From the NCBI GenBank assembly GCA_022829145.1, contig CM040758.1, positions 27,115,967-27,179,966 on the forward strand: 64,000 bases of DNA, written 5' to 3'. The notes under the pieces were generated by a model. The model did no database searches. It was given only the letters and a program-made list of their open reading frames with translations, and was not told the DNA's origin. Position 1 is the stretch's first letter. Every line of letters starts with the position of its first letter. The DNA is from Albula goreensis (taxonomy: Eukaryota; Chordata; Actinopteri; Albuliformes; Albulidae). The translations under genes and the position numbers were made by a program. Positions 1 to 55,994 of the stretch are shown piece by piece.

Positions 1-2344
1 AGGGTCTGAGTGTATGTATTACAGTAAGTATCACTCCTGTTCCTAATCACACACAGAGTCCCTCTCTGTCAGTAACAGAAGGGTCTGAGTGTCTGTATTG
101 CCGTAAGTATCACTCCTGTTCCTAATCACACACAGAGTCCCTCTCTGTCAGTAACAGAAGGGTCTGAGTGTCTGTATTACAGTAAGTATCACTCCTGTTC
201 CTAATCACACAGAGTCCCTCTCTGTCAGTAACAGAAGGGTCTGAGTGTCTGTATTTCAGTATCATTCCTGTTCCTAATCACACACAGAGTCCCTCTCTGT
301 CAGTAACAGAAGGGTCTGAGTGTCTGTATTACAGTAAGTATCACTCCTGTTCCTCATCACACACAGAGACCCTCTCTGTCAGTAACAGAAGGGTCTGAGT
401 GTCTGTATTACAGAAGGGTATCACTCCTGTTCTTAATCACACACAGAGTCCCTCTCTGTCAGTAACAGAAGGGTCTGAGTGTCTGTATTACAGTAAGTAT
501 CACTCCTGTTCCTAATCACACACAGAGTCCCTCTCTGTCAGTAACAGAAGGGTCTGAGTGTCTGTATTACAGTATCACTCCTGTTCTTAATCACACACAG
601 AGTCCCTCTCTGTCAGTAACAGAAGGGTCTGAGTGTCTGTATTACAGTAAGTATCACTCCTGTTCCTAATCACACACAGAGTCCCTCTCTGTCAGTAACA
701 GAAGGGTCTGAGTGTCTGTATTACAGTATCACTCCTGTTCCTAATCACACACAGAGTCCCTCTGTCAGTAACAGAAGGGTCTGAGTGTCTGTATTACAGT
801 ATCACTCCTGTTCCTAATGACACACAGAGTCCCTCTCTGTCAGTAACAGAAGGGTCTGAGTGTCTGTATTACAGTAAGTATCACTCCTGTTCCTAATCAC
901 ACACAGAGTCCTCTCTGTCAGTAACAGAAGGGTCTGAGTGTCTGTATTACAGTAAGTATCACTCCTGTTCCTAATCACACACAGAGTCCCTCTCTGTCAG
1001 TAACAGAAGGGTCTGAGTGTCTGTATTACAGTAAGTATCACTCCTGTTCCTAATCACACACAGAGTCCCTCTCTGTCAGTAACAGAAGGGTCTGAGTGTC
1101 TGTGTTACAGTAAGTATCACTCCTGTTCCTAATCACACACAGAGTCCTCTCTGTCAGTAACAGAAGGGTCTGAGTGTCTGTATTACAGTAAGTATCACTC
1201 CTGTTCCTCATCACACACAGAGTCCCTCTCTGTCAGTAACAGAAGGGTCTGAGTGTCTGTATTACAGTAAGTATCACTCCTGTTCCTAATCACACACAGA
1301 GTCCCTCTCTGTCAGTAACAGAAGGGTCTGAGTGTCTGTATTACAGTAAGTATCACTCCTGTTCCTAATCACACACAGAGTCCTCTCTGTCAGTAACAGA
1401 AGGGTCTGAGTGTCTGTATTACAGTATCACTCCTGTTCCTAATCACACACAGAGTCCCTCTCTGTCAGTAACAGAAGGGTCTGAGTGTCTGTATTACAGT
1501 AAGTATCACTCCTGTTCCTAATCACACACAGAGTCCTCTCTGTCAGTAACAGAAGGGTCTGAGTGTCTGTATTACAGTAAGTATCACTCCTGTTCCTAAT
1601 CACACACAGAGTCCCTCTCTGTTAGTAACAGAAGGGTCTGAGTGTCTGTATTACAGTATCACTCCTGTTCCTAATCACACACAGAGTCCCTCTCTGTCAG
1701 TAACAGAAGGGTCTGAGTGTCTGTATTACAGTAAGTATCACTCCTGTTCCTAATCACACACAGAGTCCTCTCTGTCAGTAACAGAAGGGTCTGAGTGTCT
1801 GTATTACAGTAAGTATCACTCCTGTTCCTAATCACACACAGAGTCCTCTCTGTCAGTAACAGAAGGGTCTGAGTGTCTGTATTACAGTATCACTCCTGTT
1901 CCTAATCACACACAGAGTCCCTCTCTGTCAGTAACAGAAGGGTCTGAGTGTCTGTATTACAGTAAGTATCACTCCTGTTCCTAATCACACACAGAGTCCT
2001 CTCTGTCAGTAACAGAAGGGTCTGAGTGTCTCTTATTACAGTATCACTCCTGTTCCTAATCACACACAGAGTCCCTCTCTGTCAGTAACAGAAGGGTCTG
2101 AGTGTCTGTATTACAGTATCACTCCTGTTCCTAATCACACACAGAGTCCCTCTCTGTCAGTAACAGAAGGGTCTGAGTGTCTGTATTACAGTAAGTATCA
2201 CTCCTGTTCCTAATCACACACAGAGTCCCTCTCTGTCAGTAACAGAAGGGTCTGAGTGTCTGTATTACAGTATCACTCCTGTTCCTAATCACACACAGAG
2301 TCCCTCTCTGTCAGTAACAGAAGGGTCTGAGTGTCTGTATTACA
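1..2344 (+). repeat. 79-bp tandem array (about 31 units); candidate microexon array of gene A
   Basis: About 31 head-to-tail units of 79 bp (75 bp where TAAG is missing). Every unit has the same internal order: a CTAAT branch-point-like site, a pyrimidine run ending in CTCTCTGTCAG, a 30-nt block, then ACA followed by GTAAGTATC, a strong 5' splice site. The 30-nt block is open in phase 1-1 and encodes the decapeptide ITEGSECLYY. The same phase is used by the clear tail exons that follow. About 10 units lack TAAG and keep only a weak GTATCACTC donor. About 8 have a 1-2 nt deletion in the pyrimidine run. The 30-nt block varies little in length; the unit near 2012 has a 1-nt insertion and the unit near 390 a changed donor. 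The implied introns of 45-49 nt are very short for a vertebrate, so splicing of all units is inference. An ordinary intronic minisatellite that captured one exon is the alternative. Confidence 0.8.
2315..2344 (+). CDS. Gene A candidate microexon, last array unit
   Basis: 30 nt between CTCTCTGTCAG and GTAAGTAACT, phase 1-1, encoding TEGSECLYY with a split Ile codon. It is the unit nearest the unique sequence and the one most likely to be a real exon even if the rest of the array is not spliced. Confidence 0.45.
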
Positions 2345-5300
2345 GTAAGTAACTTCATCTTAAATACCTGGTCACATGATCCCATTTCGACTGTGAATGT
2401 CTACAGTGAAGCTTTATCACCTGCATACTGAACTAACTTGGTTGTATTTCTGATTGTAGGGAAGAAGAAGCCGATAAATGAAGGTACGTGTTATTACCAT
2501 GTGTGTTTAGCTTTTTGATACAGATGGAACACATTCTCTGAGATGTTCCAGAATGTTCCATAGCTGCTGACCTGGGCTCAGATCTGCTGCCTGAGGCTCT
2601 GACGGAGAGGCTGAATGCTGTAGGATCTGTCACATCAGCACAGAGAGGTTGTGTTAGAGCAGCAGGCTGTGTAGTGTGTGTGGTCATGCTAACGCTTAGA
2701 GAAGCACAGCACAGAGAGGTTGTGTTAGAGCAGTAGGCTGTGTAGCGTGTGTGGTCATGCTAACGCTTAGAGAAGCACAGCACAGAGAGGTTGTGTTAGA
2801 GCAGCAGGCTGTGTAGTGTGTGTGGCCATGCTAACGCTTAGAGAAGCACAGCACAGAGAGGTTGTGTTAGAGCAGCAGGCTGTGTAGTGTGTGTGGCCAT
2901 GCTAACGCTTAGAGAAGCACAGCACAGAGAGGTTGTGTTAGAGCAGCAGGCTGTGTAGTGTGTGTGGTCATGCTAACGCTTAGTGAAGCACAGCACAGAG
3001 AGGTTGTGTTAGAGCAGTAGGCTGTGTACTCTGTGTGGTCATGCTAACGCTTAGAGCAGCACAGCACAGAGAGGTTGTGTTAGAGCAGCAGGCTGTGTAG
3101 TGTGTGTGGCCATGCTAACGCTTAGAGAAGCACAGCACAGAGAGGTTGTGTTAGAGCAGCAGGCTGTGTAGCGTGTGTGGTCATGCTAACGCTTAGAGAA
3201 GCACAGCACAGAGAGGTTGTGTTAGAGCAGCAGGCTGTGTAGTGTGTGTGGTCATGCTAACGCTTAGAGAAGCACAGCACAGAGAGGTTGTGTTAGAGCA
3301 GCAGGCTGTGTAGTGTGTGTGGTCATGCTAACGCTTAGAGAAGCACAGCACAGAGAGGGTGTGTTAGAGCAGCAGGCTGTGTAGTGTGTGTAGTCATGCT
3401 AACGCTTAGCGAAGCACAGCACAGAGAGGTTGTGTTAGAGCAGCAGGCTGTGTAGTGTGTGTGGTCATGCTAACGCTTAGAGAAACACAGCACAGAGAGG
3501 TTGTGTTAGAGCAGCAGGCTGTGTAGTGTGTGTGGTCATGCTAACGCTTAGAGAAACACAGCACAGAGAGGTTGTGTTGGAGCAGCAGGCTGTGTAGCGT
3601 GTGTGGTCATGCTAACGCTTAGAGAAGCACAGCACAGAGAGGTTTTGTTAGAGCAGCAGGCTGTGTAGTGTGTGTGGTCATGCTAACGCTTAGAGACGCA
3701 CAGCACAGAGAGTTTTTGTTAGAGCAGCAGGCTGTGTAGTGTGTGTGGTCTTGCTAACGCTTAGCGAAGCACAGCACAGAGAGGTTGTGTTAGAGCAGCA
3801 GGCTGTGTAGTGTGTGTGGTCATGCTAACGCTTAGAGAAGCACAGCACAGAGAGGTTGTGTTAGAGCAGCAGGCTGTGGTGCGTGTGTGGTCATGCTAAC
3901 GCTTAGAGAAGCACAGCACAGAGAGGTTGTGTTAGAGCAGCAGGCTGTGTAGTGTGTGTGGTCATGCTAACACTTAGAGAAGCACAGCACAGAGAGGTTG
4001 TGTTAGAGCAGCAGGCTGTGTCGTGTGTGTGGTCATGTAAACACTTAGAGAAGCACAGCATAGAGAGGTTGTGTTAGAGCAGCAGGCTGTGTAGCGTGTG
4101 TGGTCATGCTAATGCTTAGAGAAGCACAGCAGAGAGAGGTTGTGTTAGAGCTGCAGGCTGTGTAGTGAGACTCAAGCTAGTTATTGTGTCATATGTGAGA
4201 CTCAATCTTATTACCCTCCAAATGAAACAACGTAAAAAGAGAAAGGAGCTTCAGCTATTCAGTCTCATGTTAGGGGACTGGTCCCACAATCTCATTTTAC
4301 TCAGATCTCTTATAGTGAAGCCGTATCACCTGCATGTAGAACTAACTGCTGTATTTCTCATTTTAGGGGACACAGAATTTCAGAGAGTCAGCACTGGTAA
4401 GTTGTCATTGTGTTTGTGTGTATTTTGTGTATTTCTGTGCATGTGTGTATTTGCACATGTGTCCGTGTATGCTTTCAATAACTCTTTCGGTAGATATGCA
4501 AGCATGTCTGTGAATATGTGTGTTTGCGTGCTTTGCACGTGCATGTAGTTACAGTGTCTCTATAACGTTTGGGACAAAGACATGTACAAAAACATGCAAC
4601 AAAGCACTAAATATGACTAATTGAGGGAGCATGAATATGGTGTCCTGAAAAGTGGAGAGTATGTGTGCAATGTGTGATGGGTAAATCTGTAAATGTTTTA
4701 AAATTCCATGACAATCTTCTCTTTACCCACTTGTGAATTGTTGGACTATAAATAACAAGTACAGAGCCAAATGAAGATAAAAATGTGTCTTTGTCCCAAA
4801 ACGGTATGGAGTACACTGTGTGTCTCTGAGTATGTGTGCGTGACTTCACTCTTCACCGTAGAGTGAAGCCCCATCTGCTAAAACTGCATATGGGCTAAAA
4901 AACTAAGACTGAATTACACATGCTTACCTGTGCTACATTATATGTTCTGTTTCAGGCATTGTCCTTATGCAACATCATCATTTTGTTTCATACCTTGATT
5001 TAAATTGAGTCAGTTTCCAGCTCTTTATGATATCCATTAACAGATGTAATGTTATGGAGCTTACATGACCAATTCACAATAACCTGTGAAATTGATGGAA
5101 GACAATTGATTTTATTTAATGTGTTTATCTGTTGAACCTCTGAGCTGACCACTCAGTGAGTGTAATATTGGTAAGTTAAAGTTTGATATTGATAAGTTAT
5201 AACTGAATGCTTCTTATGGGTTGATACTGAGAGAGCTGGGTAAAAATGGCTTATAACTCTGTGTTTGTATCTATGAGGTTCTGCTGTATGTGCTGTTCTT

Positions 5301-5547
5301 TTTATTAAGCAACAAGGTTAATCTTCATTCCTAAATTTACTGAATGTTTTTTTTTATTTTACCTTAAGGAGAAGTGAATTGCGATGAGCCGAAAGTGACT
5401 GTAGGAGGAGACTCAAACAGCGCAGAGGTGAGTGTAGCATTTGTCTGCTGCTCCTCTTCCTCTCCTCTGTCTGTCGGCCAAGTTTACAAACTTTACCTTT
5501 ATTCATTCACTCTTTTCCTCACACAGAACAACTGTGACAGGCTTTAA
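2315..5547 (+). CDS. Gene A (3' part): cytoplasmic tail of a SLAM/CD2-like IgSF receptor
   Basis: Tail exons of a plus-strand receptor whose ectodomain and transmembrane exons lie left of the window. The model joins 2315-2344 (last array unit), 2460-2483, 4367-4396, 5369-5427 and 5527-5547. Phases are 1-1, 1-1, 1-1, 1-0 and 0-stop, so the frame stays open to TAA at 5545. The acceptors before 2460 and 4367 lie in similar sequence (a TATCACCTGCAT block, then a T-rich tract), so those two exons look like duplicates. Intron sequence after 2483 (about 2540-2590) is near identical to that after the tail exon at 57417 of gene D, making A a paralogue of D. No ITIM or ITSM is present; the only tyrosines are the YY of the repeated decapeptide. 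Receptor identity is inferred from this paralogy and the neighbouring genes. Confidence 0.5.
2460..2483 (+). CDS. Gene A tail exon, 24 nt
   Basis: Acceptor TTTCTGATTGTAG and donor GTACGTGT bound a 24-nt phase 1-1 exon encoding a basic stretch, KKKPINE. It matches the gene D exon 57382-57417: both follow TCTGATTGTAG, end in AATGAAG, and are followed by the same GATGTTCCAGAATGTTCC intron sequence. Confidence 0.6.
2636..4166 (+). repeat. 71-bp minisatellite, about 21 units
   Basis: Units contain GCTAACGCTTAGAGAAGCAC and GGTTGTGTTAGAGCAGCAGG. The array lies wholly in the gene A intron between the 24-nt and 30-nt tail exons. Units differ by scattered substitutions and the array ends cleanly in unique DNA near 4167. 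No exon-like splice structure is seen in the unit. Confidence 0.95.
4367..4396 (+). CDS. Gene A tail exon, 30 nt
   Basis: T-rich acceptor TTTCTCATTTTAG and donor GTAAGTTGT flank a phase 1-1 exon encoding GDTEFQRVST. The upstream 50 bp resembles that of the 24-nt exon, so this is probably a duplicate that survived on the far side of the 71-bp array. Confidence 0.55.
5369..5427 (+). CDS. Gene A penultimate tail exon, phase 1 to 0
   Basis: Acceptor TTTTACCTTAAG, donor GAG|GTGAGTG, 59 nt. It encodes GEVNCDEPKVTV then GGDSNSAE, an acidic Ser/Asn-rich tail without tyrosine. The phase shift from 1 to 0 is shared with the 62-nt tail exon of B1 and with the 83-nt DIYANSTY exons, suggesting a conserved gene plan. 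Confidence 0.55.
5527..5547 (+). CDS. Gene A terminal coding exon
   Basis: Strong acceptor (CTCTTTTCCTCACACAG) followed in phase 0 by NNCDRL and TAA at 5545-5547. The untranslated region would continue into the 42-bp repeat; no close AATAAA was found. Confidence 0.45.
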   Translation, partial: NNCDRL

Positions 5548-48100: not shown

Positions 48101-51100
48101 TGCGTTTAGGAATCAGATCACCTTCAGCTTCTGCATTTAGGAATCAGATCACCTTCTACTTCTGCGTTTAGGAATCAGATCACCTTCAGCTTCTGCGTTT
48201 AGGAATCAGATCACCTTCAGCTTCTGCGTTTAGGAATCAGATCACCTTCAGCTTCTGCGTTTAGGAATCAGATCACCTTCAGTTTCTGCGTTTAGGAATC
48301 AGATCACCTTCAGCTTCTGCGTTTAGGAATCAGATCACCTTCTACTTCTGCATTTAGGAATCAGATCACCTTCTGCAGCTGCGTTTAGGAATCAGATCAC
48401 CTTCAGCTTCGGCGTTTAGGAATCAGATCACCTTCAGCTTCTGCGTTTAGGAATCAGATCACCTTCTACTTCTGCGTTTAGGAATCAATCACCTTCTACT
48501 TCTGCATTTAGGAATCAGATCACCTTCTGCAGCTGCGTTTAGGAATCAGATCACCTTCAGCTTCTGCGTTTAGGAATCAGATCACCTTCAGCTTCTGCGT
48601 TTAGGAATCAGATCACCTTCTACTTCTGCGTTTAGGAATCAGATCACCTTCTACTTCTGCATTTAGGAATCAGATCACCTTCTACTTCTGCATTTAGGAA
48701 TCAGATCACCTTCTACATCTGCGTTTAGGAATCAGATCACCTTCTACATCTGCGTTTAGGAATCAGATCACCTTCTGCAGCTCTGGCTGCTGCCTCACTA
48801 TGACCCTCAGGTCGACTCATTTCAACAACTAGCCAACTGGTTCTTTGCCTCACAGCGGATTCACTGATCCCTGCTCGACTGGTGCATGATGTCATCAGTG
48901 TGCATGCATCTACATCAAGAGCCGATTGTGCACACAGAACTTCCTCTGCACTCTCTATCTCCATGCAGTTGTTGGCTTATTAAAATAAATGAATTATCAC
49001 AGTCAATATGCTGATTTGATCGTATCCATTAGCGATGTTTTTAAAATGCAATATATGGTGCAGCCCTACTTTGCCATGCTCTGTCAAGCCTGTACTCGGT
49101 GCCAGGCTTGTACTGCCGCGGTCTCCAGCTCCTGCCTGTACTGCCGCGGTCTCCAGCTCCTGCCTGTACTGCCGCGGTCTCCAGCTCCTGCCTGTACTGC
49201 CGCGGTCTCCAGCTCCTGCCTGTACTGCCGCGGTCTCCAGCTCCTGCTTGTACTGCAGCGGTCTCCAGCTCCTGCTTGTACTGCCGCGGTCTCCAGCTCC
49301 TGCTTGTACTGCCGCGGTCTCCAGCTCCTGCCTGTACTGCCGCGGTCTCCAGCTCCTGCTTGTACTGCCGCGGTCTCCAGCTCCTGCTTGCTTTGGGGCT
49401 CGTTTAGCTTTTCTCTTCAGCATATGAAGCGCATGTTCACATGATTTGATCTGAGCTCAAGCTTTGCCAAACACACTCATCCCTCCGGAGCCCCTGTGTT
49501 TATCAGTTGCGCATGGCTCTTTCTTACATTGGAATGTTGCATGTATGAATTCCCAACCTCCTTTTTTATTTTGCTCATCCTGTGAATGAGTGTTTTATTT
49601 ATTTTTTGTGTGTCTCTCTCTGTCCACAGTTCCAGTCTTGGCGCCCAATGTCAGTGTCACCCATGCTGAACACCCCTGCAAATTACTGTGCACTGTGGAG
49701 AAGGGAACGCAAATCAACATGTCCTGGTACAGAGAGGGGGAGGAGTTAAGCCTTATCCACACCCCTCCTGTAAACGCTCCTTATTACCTGCCTGTACCTG
49801 TGTATGAGAGCGGCACCTACACCTGTGAGGCTGTAAACCCCGTCAGCAGCAGTAAGACCTCAGTCACTGTGGGGCAGGAATGTGCAGGTGAGCTTCATGT
49901 ACCTCTGAAATCTAAAATCAGAAAATGAGACACGTGATCAACATTTTAAAAGGATCTGTGCTTCTTTCAGATGGGAATTTTCCCATTCAAATTAAACTCA
50001 TTTTTCAAATGATGCTTTATTTGTGATGTTTGTTTTGTTGATAGTGGCAGTGCGTATGTGCTCTGGTTTTCTACACTTAAGTCATGTGTGTTGTTCCAGT
50101 GTGTGACATTGCTTTGGTTTTTTGTATCCAGTAAAATTATCAGTTTTTATTTTTAAAAGATAAAAGGGTCTGATCAGGACCAAGGGCAAACCTAAATCAC
50201 ACGGTCAACATTCTAATGATGTTCACACAGTTGTACTAATGAATGTTTTGTGTTTATTTCACCATGTGACCCTGGACATGCTCCTGTGGACCTCAGTCAA
50301 AGCTCAACCATGTAAGTAACTCCTATAATCTCTGGGTTAGGGTTAGGTGTGTAAGGGTTAGGTGTGAGGGTGAGGGTTGGTGTGAGGGTAGGGTGGGTTA
50401 GGTGTGTGAGGGTGAGGGAGGTGTAAGGGTTAGGGTTAGGTGTGTGAGGGTGAGGGTTAGGTGTGTGAGGGTGAGGGTTAGGTGTGTAAGGGTGAGGGTT
50501 AGGTGTGTGAGGTGAGGTTAGGTGTGTAAGGGTTAGGGTTAGGTGTGTTAGGGTGAGGGTTAGGTTGTGTGTGAGGGTGAGGGTTAGGTGTGTAAGGGTT
50601 AGGGTTGTGTGAGGGTGAGGGTTGAGGGTTAGGTGTGAGGGTTAGGTGTGTGAGGGTGAGGGTTAGATGTGTGAGGGTTAGGGTTAGGTGTGTGAGGGTG
50701 AGGGTTAGGTGTGTGAGGGTGAGTGTTAGGTGTGTGAGGGTTAGGTGAGTGAGGGTGAGGGTTAGGTGTGTAAGGGTTAGGTGTGTGAGGGTGAGGGTTA
50801 GGTGTGTAAGGGTGAGGGTTAGGTGTGTGAGGGTGAGGGTTAGGTGTGTGAGGGTGAGGGTTAGGTTTATAAGGGTTAGGGTTAGGTGCGTAAAGGTGAG
50901 GTTTAGGTGTGTGAGGGTGAGGGTTAGGTGAGTGAGGGTGAGGGTTAGGAGTGTGAGGGTGAGGGTTAGGTGTGTGAGGGTGAGGGTTAGGTGTGTGAGG
51001 GTTAGGTGTGTGAGGGTGAGGGTTAGATGTGTAACGGTGAGGGTTAGGTGTGTAAGGGTTAGGGTTAGGTGTGAGGGTGAGGGTTAGGTGTTTAAGGGTG

Positions 51101-54100
51101 AGTGTTAGGTGTGTGAGGGTGAGGGTTAGGTGAGTGAGGGTGAGGGTTCGGTGTGTAAGGGTTAGGGTTAGGTGTGTGAGGGTGAGGGTTAGGTGTGTGA
51201 TGGTGAGGGTTAGGTGTGTGAGGGTTAGGGTTAGGTGTGTGAGGGTGAGGGTTAGGTGTGTAAGGGTTAGGGTTAGGTGTGTGATGGTGAGGGTTAGGTG
51301 TGTGAGGGTGAGGGTTAGGTGCGTGAGGGTTAGGGTTAGGTTTATAAGGGTGAGGGTTAGGTGCGTAAAGGTGAGGGTTAGGTGTGTGATGGTGAGGGTT
51401 AGGTGTGTGAGGGTTAGGGTTAGGTGTGTGAGGGTTAGGTGTGTGAGGGTGAGGGTTAGGTGCGTGAGGGTTAGGGTTAGGTTTATAAGGGTGAGGGTTA
51501 GGTGTGTGAAGGTGAGGGTTAGGTGCGTGAGGGTTAGGTGTGTTAGGGTTAGGGTTATGTGTGTGAGGGTGAGGGTTTGGTGTGTGAGGGTGAGGGTTAG
51601 GTGTGTGATGGTGAGGGTTAGGTGCGTGAGGGTTAGGGTTAGGTGTGTAATGGTGAGGGTTAGGTGTATAAGGGTGAGGGTTAGATGTGTAACGGTGAGG
51701 GTTAGGTGTGTGAGGGTGAGGGTTAGGTGCATAAGGGTGAGGGTTAGGTGCGTGAGGGTGAGGGTTACGTGCGTAAGGGTGAGGGTTAGGTGCGTGAGGG
51801 TGAGGGTTAGGTGCATGAGGGTGAGGGTTAGGTGTGTGAGGGTGAGGGTTAGGTGTGTGAGGGTTAGGGTTAGGTGTGTGAGGGTGAGGGATAGGTGTGT
51901 GAGGGTGAGGGTTAGGTGTGTAAGGGTTAGGGTTAGGTGCGTGAGGGTTAGGGTTAGGTGAGTGAGGGTGAGGGTTAGGTGTGTGAGGGTTAGGGTTCTA
52001 GCGGTCTCCAGCTCCTGCCTGTACTGCCGCGGTCTCCAGCTCCTGCCTGTACTGCCGCGGTCTCCAGCTCCTGTCTGTACTGCGGCGGTCTCCAGCTCCT
52101 GCTTGTACTGCCGCGGTCTCCAGCTCCTGCCTGTACTGCCGCGGTCTCCAGCTCCTGCCTGTACTGCCGCGGTCTCCAGCTCCTGCCTTGTACTGCCGCG
52201 GTCTCCAGCTCCTGCTTGTACTGCCGCGGTCTCCAGCTCCTGCCTGTACTGCCGCGGTCTCCAGCTCCTGCTTGTACTGCCGCGGTCTCCAGCTCCTGCT
52301 TGTACTGCCGCGGTCTCCAGCTCCTGCTTGTACTGCCGCGGTCTCCAGCTCCTGCTTGCTTTGGGGCTCGTTTAGCTTTTCTCTTCAGCATATGAAGCGC
52401 ATGTTCACATGATTTGATCTGAGCTCAAGCTTTGCCAAACACACTCATCCCTCCGGAGCCCCTGTGTTTATCAGTTGCGCACGGCTCTTTCTTACATTGG
52501 AATGTTGCATGTATGAATTCCCAACCTCCTTTTTTATTTTTCTCATCCTGTGTATGAGTGTTTTATTTATTCTTTGTGTGTTTCTCTCTCTGTCCACAGT
52601 TCCAGTGTTGGCGCCCAATGTCAGTGTCACCCATGCTGAGCACCCCTGCAAATTACTGTGCACTGTGGAGAGGGGAACGCAAATCAACATGTCCTGGTAC
52701 AGAGAGGGGGAGGAGTTAAGCCTTATCCACACCCCTCCTGTAAACGCTCCTTATTACCTGCCTGTACCTGTGTATGAGAGCGGCACCTACACCTGTGAGG
52801 CTGTAAACCCCGTCAGCAGCAGTAAGACCTCAGTCACTGTGGGGGAAGAATGTGCAGGTGAGCTTCATGTACCTCTGAAATCTAAAATCAGAAAATGAGA
52901 CACGTGATCAACATTTTAAAAAGGATCTGTGCTTCTTTCAGATGGGAATTTTCCCATTCAAATTAAACTAATTTTTCAAATGATGCTTTATTTGTGATGT
53001 TTGTTTTGTTGATAGTGGCAGTGCGTATGTGCTCTGGTTTTCTACACTTAAGTCATGTGTGTTGTTCCAGTGTGTGACATTGCTTTGGTTTTTTGTATCC
53101 AGTAAAATTATCAGTTTTTATTTTTAAAAGATAAAAGGGTCTGATCAGGACCAAGGGCAAACCTAAATCACACGGTCAACATTCTAATGATGTTCACACA
53201 GTTGTACTAATGAATGTTTTGTGTTTATTTCACCATGTGACCCTGGACATGCTCCTGTGGACCTCAGTCAAAGCTCAACCATGTAAGTAACTCCTATAAT
53301 CTCTGGGTTAGGGTTAGGTGTGTGAGGGTTAGGGTTAGGTGTGAGGGTTAGGTGTGTGAGGGTGAGGGTTAGGTGTGTGAGGGTGAGGGTTAGGTGTGTA
53401 AGGGTTAGGTGTGTGAGGGTGAGGGTTAGGTGTGTAAGGGTGAGGGTTAGGGTGTGTGAGGGTGAGGGTTAGGTGTGTAAGGGTGAGGGTTAGGTGTGTA
53501 AGGGTTAGGGTTAGGTGTGTAAGGGTTAGGGTTAGGTGTGTAAGAGTGAGGTTAGGTGTGTAAGGGTTAGGGTTAGGTGTGTGAGGGTTAGGGTTAGGTG
53601 TGTGAGGGTGAGGGTTAGGTGTGTAACGGTGAGGGTTAGGTGTGTAAGGGTTAGCGTTAGGTGTGTGAGGGTTAGGGTTAGGTGTGTGAGGGTGAGGGTT
53701 AGGTGTGTGAGGGTGAGGGTTAGATGTGTAAGGGTTAGGGTTAGATGTGTAACGGTGAGGGTTAGGTGTGTAAGGGTTAGGGTTAGGTGTGTAATGGTGA
53801 GGGTTAGGTGTGTGAGGGTGAGGGTTAGGTGTGTGAGGGTGAGGGTTAGGTGTGTGAGGGTGAGGGTTAGGTGTGAGGGTGAGGGTTAGGTGTGTGAGGG
53901 TGAGGGTTAGGTGTGTAAGGGTTAGGGTTAGGTGTGTGAGGGTGAGGGTTAGGTGTGTGAGGGTGAGGGATAGGTGTGTGAGGGTGAGGGTTAGGTGTGT
54001 GAGGGTGAGGGTTAGGTGTGTAAGGGTTAGGTGTGAGGGTGAGGGTTAGGTGTGTAAGGGTTAGGTGTGTGAGGGTGAGGGTTAGATGTGTAACGGTGAG

Positions 54101-55994
54101 GGTTAGGTGTGTGAGGGTGAGGGTTAGGTTTTGAGGGTGAGGGTTAGGTGTGTAACGGTGAGGTTTAGGTGTGTGAGGGTGAGGGTTAGGTGTGTGAGGG
54201 TGAGGGTTAGGTGTGTAAGGGTTAGGGTTAGGTGTGTGAGGGTGAGGGTTAGGTGTGTGAGGGTGAGGGTTAGGTGTGTGAGGGTGAGGGTTAGGTGTGA
54301 GGGTGAGGGTTAGGTGTGTGAGGGTGAGGGTTAGGTGTGTAAGGGTTAGGTGTGTGAGGGTGAGGGTTAGGTGTGTGAGGGTGAGGGTTAGGTGTGTAAG
54401 GGTTAGGTGCGTGAGGGTGAGGGTTACGTGCGTAAGAGTGAGGGTTAGGTGTGTGAGGGTGAGGGTTAGGTGTGTAAGGGTGAGTGTTTGGTGTGTGAGG
54501 GTGAGGGTTAGGTGTGTGAGGGTGAGGGTTAGGTGGTGAGGGTCAGGTGTGTGAGGGTGAGGGTTAGGTGTGTGAGGGTTAGGGTTAGGTGCGTGAGGGT
54601 CAGGGTTAGGTTTGTGAGGGTGAGGGTTGGGTTTGTAAAGGTGAGAGTTAGCTGTGTGAGGGTGAGGGTTAGGTGTGTGAGGGTGAGGGTTAGGGTGAGG
54701 GTTAGGAGTGTGAGGGTGAGGGTTAGATCTGTACGGGGGTTTTCTGTGTGTCTCATAGTGGGAGGGAGGGCTTCCAGAGGACAGCATGAGCAGTCTGTTA
54801 CTGAATGGGTTTGACTTTCACTCTGTCACAGGTCCAGGTTCAGAGGTCACAGCATATGGTGTTGCCGTTGGTATTGCCATTGGTGTGATTACTGCCATCA
54901 TCTTCTTAGCGGTCTTTGTCGGCTTGAAGAGTTATGGAAATCCCAATTTTATAAAAGGTATGTATGGATGAAACTAATTTGAAGTCTGATAGGATTTTAA
55001 AACAGAGGCAGAAGTGTGTGTGTGCGTGTGTGCGTGTGTGTGTGTGTGTGTGTGACAGGTTGGTAAAGGTATGTGTGTGTGTGTATGGAGACAGGTTGGT
55101 AAAGGTGATGTAAGGAGACAGGTTGGTAAAGGTGGTGTGAGACAGGTTGGTGTGTGTGTGAGACAGGTGCGTGTGTGTAAGGAGACAGGTTGGTAAAGGT
55201 GTGTGAGGAGACAGGTTGTAAAGGTGGTGTGAGGAGACAGGTTGGTAAATGTGGTGTAAGGAGATAGGATAGTAAAGGTGGTGTAAGGAGACAGGTTGGT
55301 AAAGGTGGTGTAAGGAGGCAGGTTGGTAAAGGTGGTGTAAGGTGACAGGTTGGTAAAGGTGGTGTAAGGAGACAGGTTGGTAAAGGTGGGTAAGGAGAAG
55401 GTTGGGCTGGTATAAGGAGACAGGTTAGTAAAGGTGGTGTAAGGAGACAGGTTGGTAAAGCTGGTATAAGGAGACAGGTTAGTAAAGGTGGTGTAAGGAG
55501 ACAGGTTGGTAAAGGTGGTGTAAGGAGACAGGTTGGTAAAGGTGGTGTAAGGAGGCAGGTTGGTAAAGGTGGTTTAAGGAGACAGGTTGGTAAAGGTGGT
55601 GTAAGGAGACAGGTTGGTAAAGCTGGTATAAGGAGACAGGTTAGTAAAGGTGGTGTAAGGAGACAGGTTGGTAAAGCTGGTATAAGGTCTCACTCTCCTC
55701 TCTCTCTCTGTTTGCAGAATTAAAGAAACTCTTAATAGGTAAGTGCCCTTTCAGGTTCTGTGTTTACAAAGACTAAAAACAAAACAAGCTAAATCCTGAC
55801 TGAACAGTAGGAATGTGTGCACTGCGAATAAGATTGTTCGTAAATCTGAAAGATACTTCAAAATGCATCAGTTTAAAGGATTTCATTCAAACACATTAGA
55901 ACTCCTGAGACTGCCTCTAGCATAGAGATGAGGTGTTGAGTAGGTGTGTGTGATTGTGTAGTTGCATGGGAGGATGTGCACAATAATAACAATA

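Follow-up and report, generated by a model that had tools for sequence, protein, structure and literature searches.

A 64,000-nucleotide stretch of the Albula goreensis genome (the window; G000:C18:27115967-27179966, contig CM040758.1) opens with a 79-bp tandem array whose units resemble small exons set between splice signals. Does this array supply microexons to the tail of a receptor, as the original prediction proposed, or is it a repeat that multiplied splice signals within an intron? Comparison of the units with one another and across the genome searched (932 Mb, 208 contigs) points to the second answer. The array is probably an exon-boundary minisatellite that mass-produced pseudo-microexons within an intron of a receptor family, and it is most likely spliced out as part of that intron.

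The 79-bp array

Repeat detection counts 30.4 copies at window positions 1–2351, and splitting at the 30-nt block gives 31 units, the number that had been anticipated; the first is cut by the window edge. Here, ‘block’ denotes the exon-like 30-nt part of a unit and ‘array block’ an uninterrupted run of units. The window units contain a CTAAT, a pyrimidine tract and an AG, followed by a block that is open in phase 1-1 as ITEGSECLYY, as originally described. The spacers are 43–50 nt long. The main unit types measure 79 bp, 78 bp (one C lost) and 75 bp (AGTA lost). Although base 1 had been taken as its start, the array extends 14 kb further left with a single 2.2-kb interruption, which separates array block X0 (115 units, starting at C18:27102034) from array block X1 (65 units, starting at C18:27113278).

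The genome contains ten array blocks with 585 units in total, all on one contig, and all 362 exact matches to a spacer 30-mer lie inside them. An array block holds between 7 and 121 units, although the one with 7 (V0) is cut by an assembly gap. Tandem units of 10–100 bp that are homogenised and differ in copy number between loci place the array among the minisatellites (variable number tandem repeats).

Probable origin at an exon boundary

The start of nine of the ten array blocks coincides with the 5′ splice site of a transmembrane (TM) exon, the TM exons being called real on the strength of their sequence, and the first spacer is always 49 nt long. X0 is preceded by TM exon 1 (GASEGSSPWHAFGFLVLGFALGAACTVVVIACLYD, 105 nt, phase 1-1), which supplies the array with its first donor. 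X1 follows on from the donor of TM exon 2 (GGNTGCNSCFIKICVPISVFIACLCC, 78 nt, phase 1-1, C18:27113200-27113277); X0 and X1 may belong to one gene or to two. Such a location, immediately after a TM exon within a receptor cluster, agrees with the predicted receptor-tail position and strand.

Among the nine loci, mean identity is 47% in the TM exons, 98.6% in the first spacer and 100% in the first 30-nt block and its donor. The break from 47% to ~99% at the exon edge is a plain example of paralogues exchanging sequence within limits set by an exon. In the block itself the left 17 nt are intronic and the other 13 nt duplicate the end of the TM exon; that exon's donor follows. This composition makes the unit an exon-boundary tandem repeat.

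The founding event would be a tandem duplication that ran from a TGTCTG 13 nt before the TM exon end to a second, intronic TGTCTG, after which the unit would have been amplified behind the TM exon to hundreds of copies across the receptor cluster. We infer such a boundary duplication because array-less TM exons show the pre-duplication state. An amplified real tail exon was rejected as the source of the unit: in an array-less relative the left 17 nt are intron and the right 13 nt are the TM exon end. The terminal unit of the window was also rejected as founder, since a TM exon anchors nine of the array blocks, and their 3′ ends are not alike. The locus would then resemble exon birth in progress, in which a short duplication turned an intron and an exon end into a full exon look-alike, and the step is readable because array-less relatives survive alongside.

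Splice signals and unit spacing

A complete set of splice signals had been ascribed to every unit, which the donors contradict. GTAAGTA is present in 20 of the 31 window units, ten have a 4-bp AGTA deletion and one reads GAAGGG. The U1 pairing energy is −2.3 kcal/mol for the AGTA-deleted donor versus −7.5 for the intact one. Among the 575 non-terminal units of the genome, 388 carry GTAAGTATC and 2 a different GTAAGT variant, 179 have the AGTA deletion and 6 some other sequence, so that the donor is strong in 390, about two thirds, and about one third lack a good donor. It is likewise about two thirds of the units that have the properties of a microexon cassette, being small (30 nt), symmetric (phase 1-1) and furnished with splice signals. 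Unit 26 has a frameshift within its block. The complete signal set is found in none of 24 other larger arrays, hand-picked from the window's tandem-repeat table and read on both strands, and in none of five further arrays; shuffling the unit yields a complete, phase-keeping and open set in 2.9% of 5,000 trials.

The donor lies 22 nt from the branch A, where the branch site is defined by consensus match alone, and the branch A lies 26 nt from the acceptor. Efficient splicing needs ~50 nt between donor and branch site (PMC6692369), and because of this shortfall neighbouring units are not plausibly joined. Only skipped joins look feasible; with one unit skipped the intron measures 122–129 nt. The expectation that any number of units could be included without breaking frame stands insofar as the frame would survive the gain or loss of whole units.

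These distances would allow a variable-tail cassette in which inclusion leap-frogs along the array, taking, for example, every second unit and never two neighbours because 22 nt is too short, and in which tails carry varying numbers of ITEGSECLYY or of a 35-residue form derived from AGTA-deleted units. Such a cassette would draw on blocks that are all in phase 1-1, on unit donors identical to that of the TM exon, which must work, and on introns of ordinary length when one unit is skipped. Of the ten AGTA-deleted window units, eight have a spacer that is open and in frame, so that reading through yields 105-nt stretches in phase 1-1; an open stretch of 45 nt is not rare by chance. Small candidate tail exons occur in the window gene and in paralogues. 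We nevertheless consider the cassette distinctly unlikely. Frame and donors are unconstrained in bulk, and no known tyrosine signalling motif is formed, as judged by eye against the patterns of the immunoreceptor tyrosine-based inhibitory and switch motifs (ITIM and ITSM). A retrocopy containing a spliced block–block junction is absent from the genome at up to three mismatches, which is weak evidence. The variable-length tail of the original prediction is weakened by a reading frame with no sign of selection in bulk and by the units that lack a good donor, and would be possible only through skipped units.

Masking of the acceptors by a hairpin was considered and rejected, as the unit acceptors are 0.37–0.38 open compared with 0.35–0.59 for the acceptors of the candidate tail exons. 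Three units have a better fold than shuffles (z −2.55), and L010 and L011 contain no match to known RNA families at the gathering threshold.

Retention of the intron would have a different outcome. Read-through of the TM donor would add a short tail ending in CLYDSKYHSCS before a stop in the first spacer, leaving a nearly tail-less receptor. This stop is read directly at X0; for the other loci it is deduced from the first spacer, which is of equal length and near-equal sequence in 9/9, and not from translating each locus singly. The TM donor is strong, and good splice signals flank candidate tail exons further downstream at locus X, which makes regular use of this read-through highly improbable.

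Variation in blocks and spacers

Bulk variation was compared over 567 units, and the block proved no less variable than the spacer. Distinct substitutions number 35 in the block (0.0059 per site and unit) and 50 in the spacer (0.0044; Fisher p = 0.49). Nine of the 35 block changes are silent (24% expected) and two create stops (6.5% expected), which fits neutrality. There is no sign in bulk of purifying selection on the 30-nt reading frame across these units; the TM-proximal units, taken by themselves, are not numerous enough for such a test. The common indels sit on slippage-prone short direct repeats (AGTAAGTA, CCC, CACA, CTCT). The 30-nt part had been described as stable in length, with indels concentrated in the spacer. 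By occurrence this is upheld: 11 of 358 indels lie wholly in the block and 347 do not, 149 of the latter being the AGTA deletion at the block edge.

Several observations weigh against a neutral boundary minisatellite. Counted as distinct types, indels are slightly rare in the block, at 10 of 40 versus 15 expected (p = 0.06), and the acceptor AG is lost in one of 572 units versus 5 expected (p = 0.04). The local signature of the TM exon end is absent from the array block behind it at Z (0/43), V0 (0/7), V1 (0/121) and Y (0/22), TATGACA occurs in four units outside X0 versus two within it, and an exact TGTCTG is missing from five of the nine array-bearing TM exons. Taken alone, W:7913 and V:17506 match the unit weakly, with 12 and 18 of 1,000 shuffles doing equally well. 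Removal of the array by splicing is itself a prediction. Finally, 9/9 TM-linked loci have an intact first unit (49-nt spacer, exact 30-nt block and GTAAGTATC) versus 147/360 inner units that pass as intact, the comparable inner units being those preceded by a strong donor.

The TM-proximal unit

The intact first unit suggests that only the TM-proximal block might be a true microexon under selection, spliced to the TM exon across an ultra-short intron of 49 nt, while the remaining units drift. The chance of nine intact first units is 1.5e-4 as a product of per-block frequencies with all nine taken as independent, and 0.004 for six lineages (X0+V0, Z+U and W+V1 each counted once). With the donors alone it is 0.03 for nine loci and 0.10 for six lineages, and the test was devised after the data had been seen. 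At the other edge of the arrays the last units are degenerate: the exact block with GTAAGTA occurs in the last unit of two of the ten array blocks (X1, at the window end, and U) and the exact 39 nt in one (U); V0's last unit adjoins an assembly gap. Array block T1, which has no TM exon, carries a weakened first donor. Human introns of 43, 49 and 56 nt do splice, but those of 43 and 49 nt are G-rich and have no usual branch site (PMC4463651), unlike the array spacer; vertebrate introns are mostly >75 bp (PMC9438311), and the 22 nt from donor to branch A fall short of the ~50 nt given above. An edge unit that seldom takes part in unequal exchange would likewise remain ancestral. The first unit may thus be intact either because its block is used or because it lies outside the exchange zone, and a selected TM-proximal microexon seems to us unlikely.

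Either a working first block or a tail of variable length may exist, and a broader scheme would combine them: a single donor duplication made a phase-keeping microexon that spread behind nine TM exons, at least the TM-proximal copy is spliced in, and the spacing rule together with copy number sets tail length. We regard this scheme as doubtful. Near-identical acceptor–donor pairs, by the hundreds behind nine TM exons, offer a natural test bed for the choice among equal sites, for the minimum donor–branch distance and for pseudo-exons gaining use in an immune-receptor tail.

Relation to known systems

Zhuo et al. 2007, to judge by its title, reportedly concerns new introns arising from tandem arrays. 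Schistosome micro-exon genes are likewise built with exons of very small size, and encode a secreted protein, but these exons of 3–81 bp are separated by introns of up to 5 kb and do not form a homogenised array with 49-nt spacers. Their exons share frame-keeping symmetry. Alpha-tropomyosin has two selected exons, in place of the hundreds of near-neutral blocks seen here. Its steric exclusion is similar in that a donor too near the next branch site would forbid the joining of neighbours (cited in PMC6692369). The human internal tandem repeats of PMC2812944 likewise expanded as minisatellites over exon–intron boundaries in large groups of recent paralogues, with copy number varying between paralogues and splicing possibly altered, as here. 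They average 30 bp × 4 with transcript-supported changes, whereas our 79-bp unit reaches 121 copies, is known from sequence alone and, in contrast to those repeats, holds an acceptor as well as a donor. The titles and abstract openings listed in literature searches contain no report of such an array.

Host genes and the receptor cluster

To the left of X0 are copies of a V-type exon (near 27095.8 and 27100.0 kb), a C2 exon (L010:3107-3448) and a candidate short exon. In this assembly the reading frame of the V copy nearer X0 is shifted against that of the other copy. The V-exon-bearing stretches L009 and L010 (C18:27095548-27096966 and 27099761-27101165) are 98.9% identical, with a gap of 500 N close by; because of the frameshift and the gap, assembly errors are possible there. 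Features of the window are collected in Table 1.

Table 1. Elements of the window, in window coordinates
Feature	Position	Strand	Basis or remark
Last 31 units of array block X1	1..2351	+	79-bp tandem-repeat detection, unit splitting
Alternative open stretch, 105 nt, phase 1-1	2240..2344	+	75-bp unit (AGTA deletion, spacer open) plus last block
30-nt block of last unit	2315..2344	+	followed by donor GTAAGTAAC
Candidate tail exon, 24 nt, phase 1-1 (RKKKPINE)	2460..2483	+	splice signals
71-bp minisatellite, next tail intron	2636..4167	+	tandem-repeat detection
Candidate tail exon, 30 nt, phase 1-1 (GDTEFQRVST)	4367..4396	+	splice signals
Candidate tail exon, 59 nt, phase 1-0	5369..5427	+	splice signals
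Candidate last coding exon with stop (NNCDRL*)	5527..5547	+	splice signals
TM exon of neighbouring receptor gene, no 79-bp array	54832..54957	+	donor GTATGTATG

The phases of the four candidate tail exons are mutually consistent. At locus Y, the stretch paralogous to the first of them keeps the donor and has lost the acceptor. Loci Z and U (C18 near 27279490 and 27321775) have a 30-nt candidate tail exon with a GTGAGT donor and an acceptor related to that of the window exon at 4367; unlike the latter, it meets an early stop if read in phase 1. The introns ahead of the candidate exons at 2460 and 4367 (window 2368-2461 and 4278-4368) are 77% identical up to the acceptor, and the exons differ; by this likeness the pair is an older duplication of the 3′ intron end. 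Among the matches listed, no convincing copy of the tail occurs elsewhere in the window, the best other match of the joined tail having an E value of 6. The array-less TM exon of the neighbouring gene is followed by a candidate 21-nt exon at ~55718.

The receptors encoded by the neighbouring genes combine a V with a C2 domain, and their cysteine patterns resemble those of CD2/SLAM. All five aligned V exons have Y-x-V in place of the usual Y-x-C, and four cysteines are invariant in all six aligned C2 exons; CD2/SLAM-type V domains lack the canonical second cysteine, and the second domain has two cysteine pairs. The V profile ranks the polymeric immunoglobulin (Ig) receptor at the top (7e-5), followed by SLAMF5 (6e-4), CD4, CD58, SLAMF6 and CD48. 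The C2 profile matches many Ig proteins, with FCRL5 at the top and SLAMF6 at 1e-4. An ITSM, TxYxx(V/I), which not every CD2/SLAM member carries, was not seen by eye in the predicted tail of the window gene. The assignment of the family as CD2/SLAM-like is tentative.

Minisatellites are frequent in this cluster: at least 25 arrays cover ~32% of the 64 kb, several of them within receptor-gene introns. The 71-bp unit is also arrayed at locus Z, downstream of the 79-bp array. Two long GGGTGAGGGTTAGGTGTGTGA arrays with telomere-like GGGTTAG words lie in a duplicated receptor gene, between its C2 and its TM exons (window 50334-51997 and 53305-54694). A 68-bp array at L017:5030-5861 has units with CTAATGAC and CTCTTACAG, an acceptor-like set with no obvious donor.
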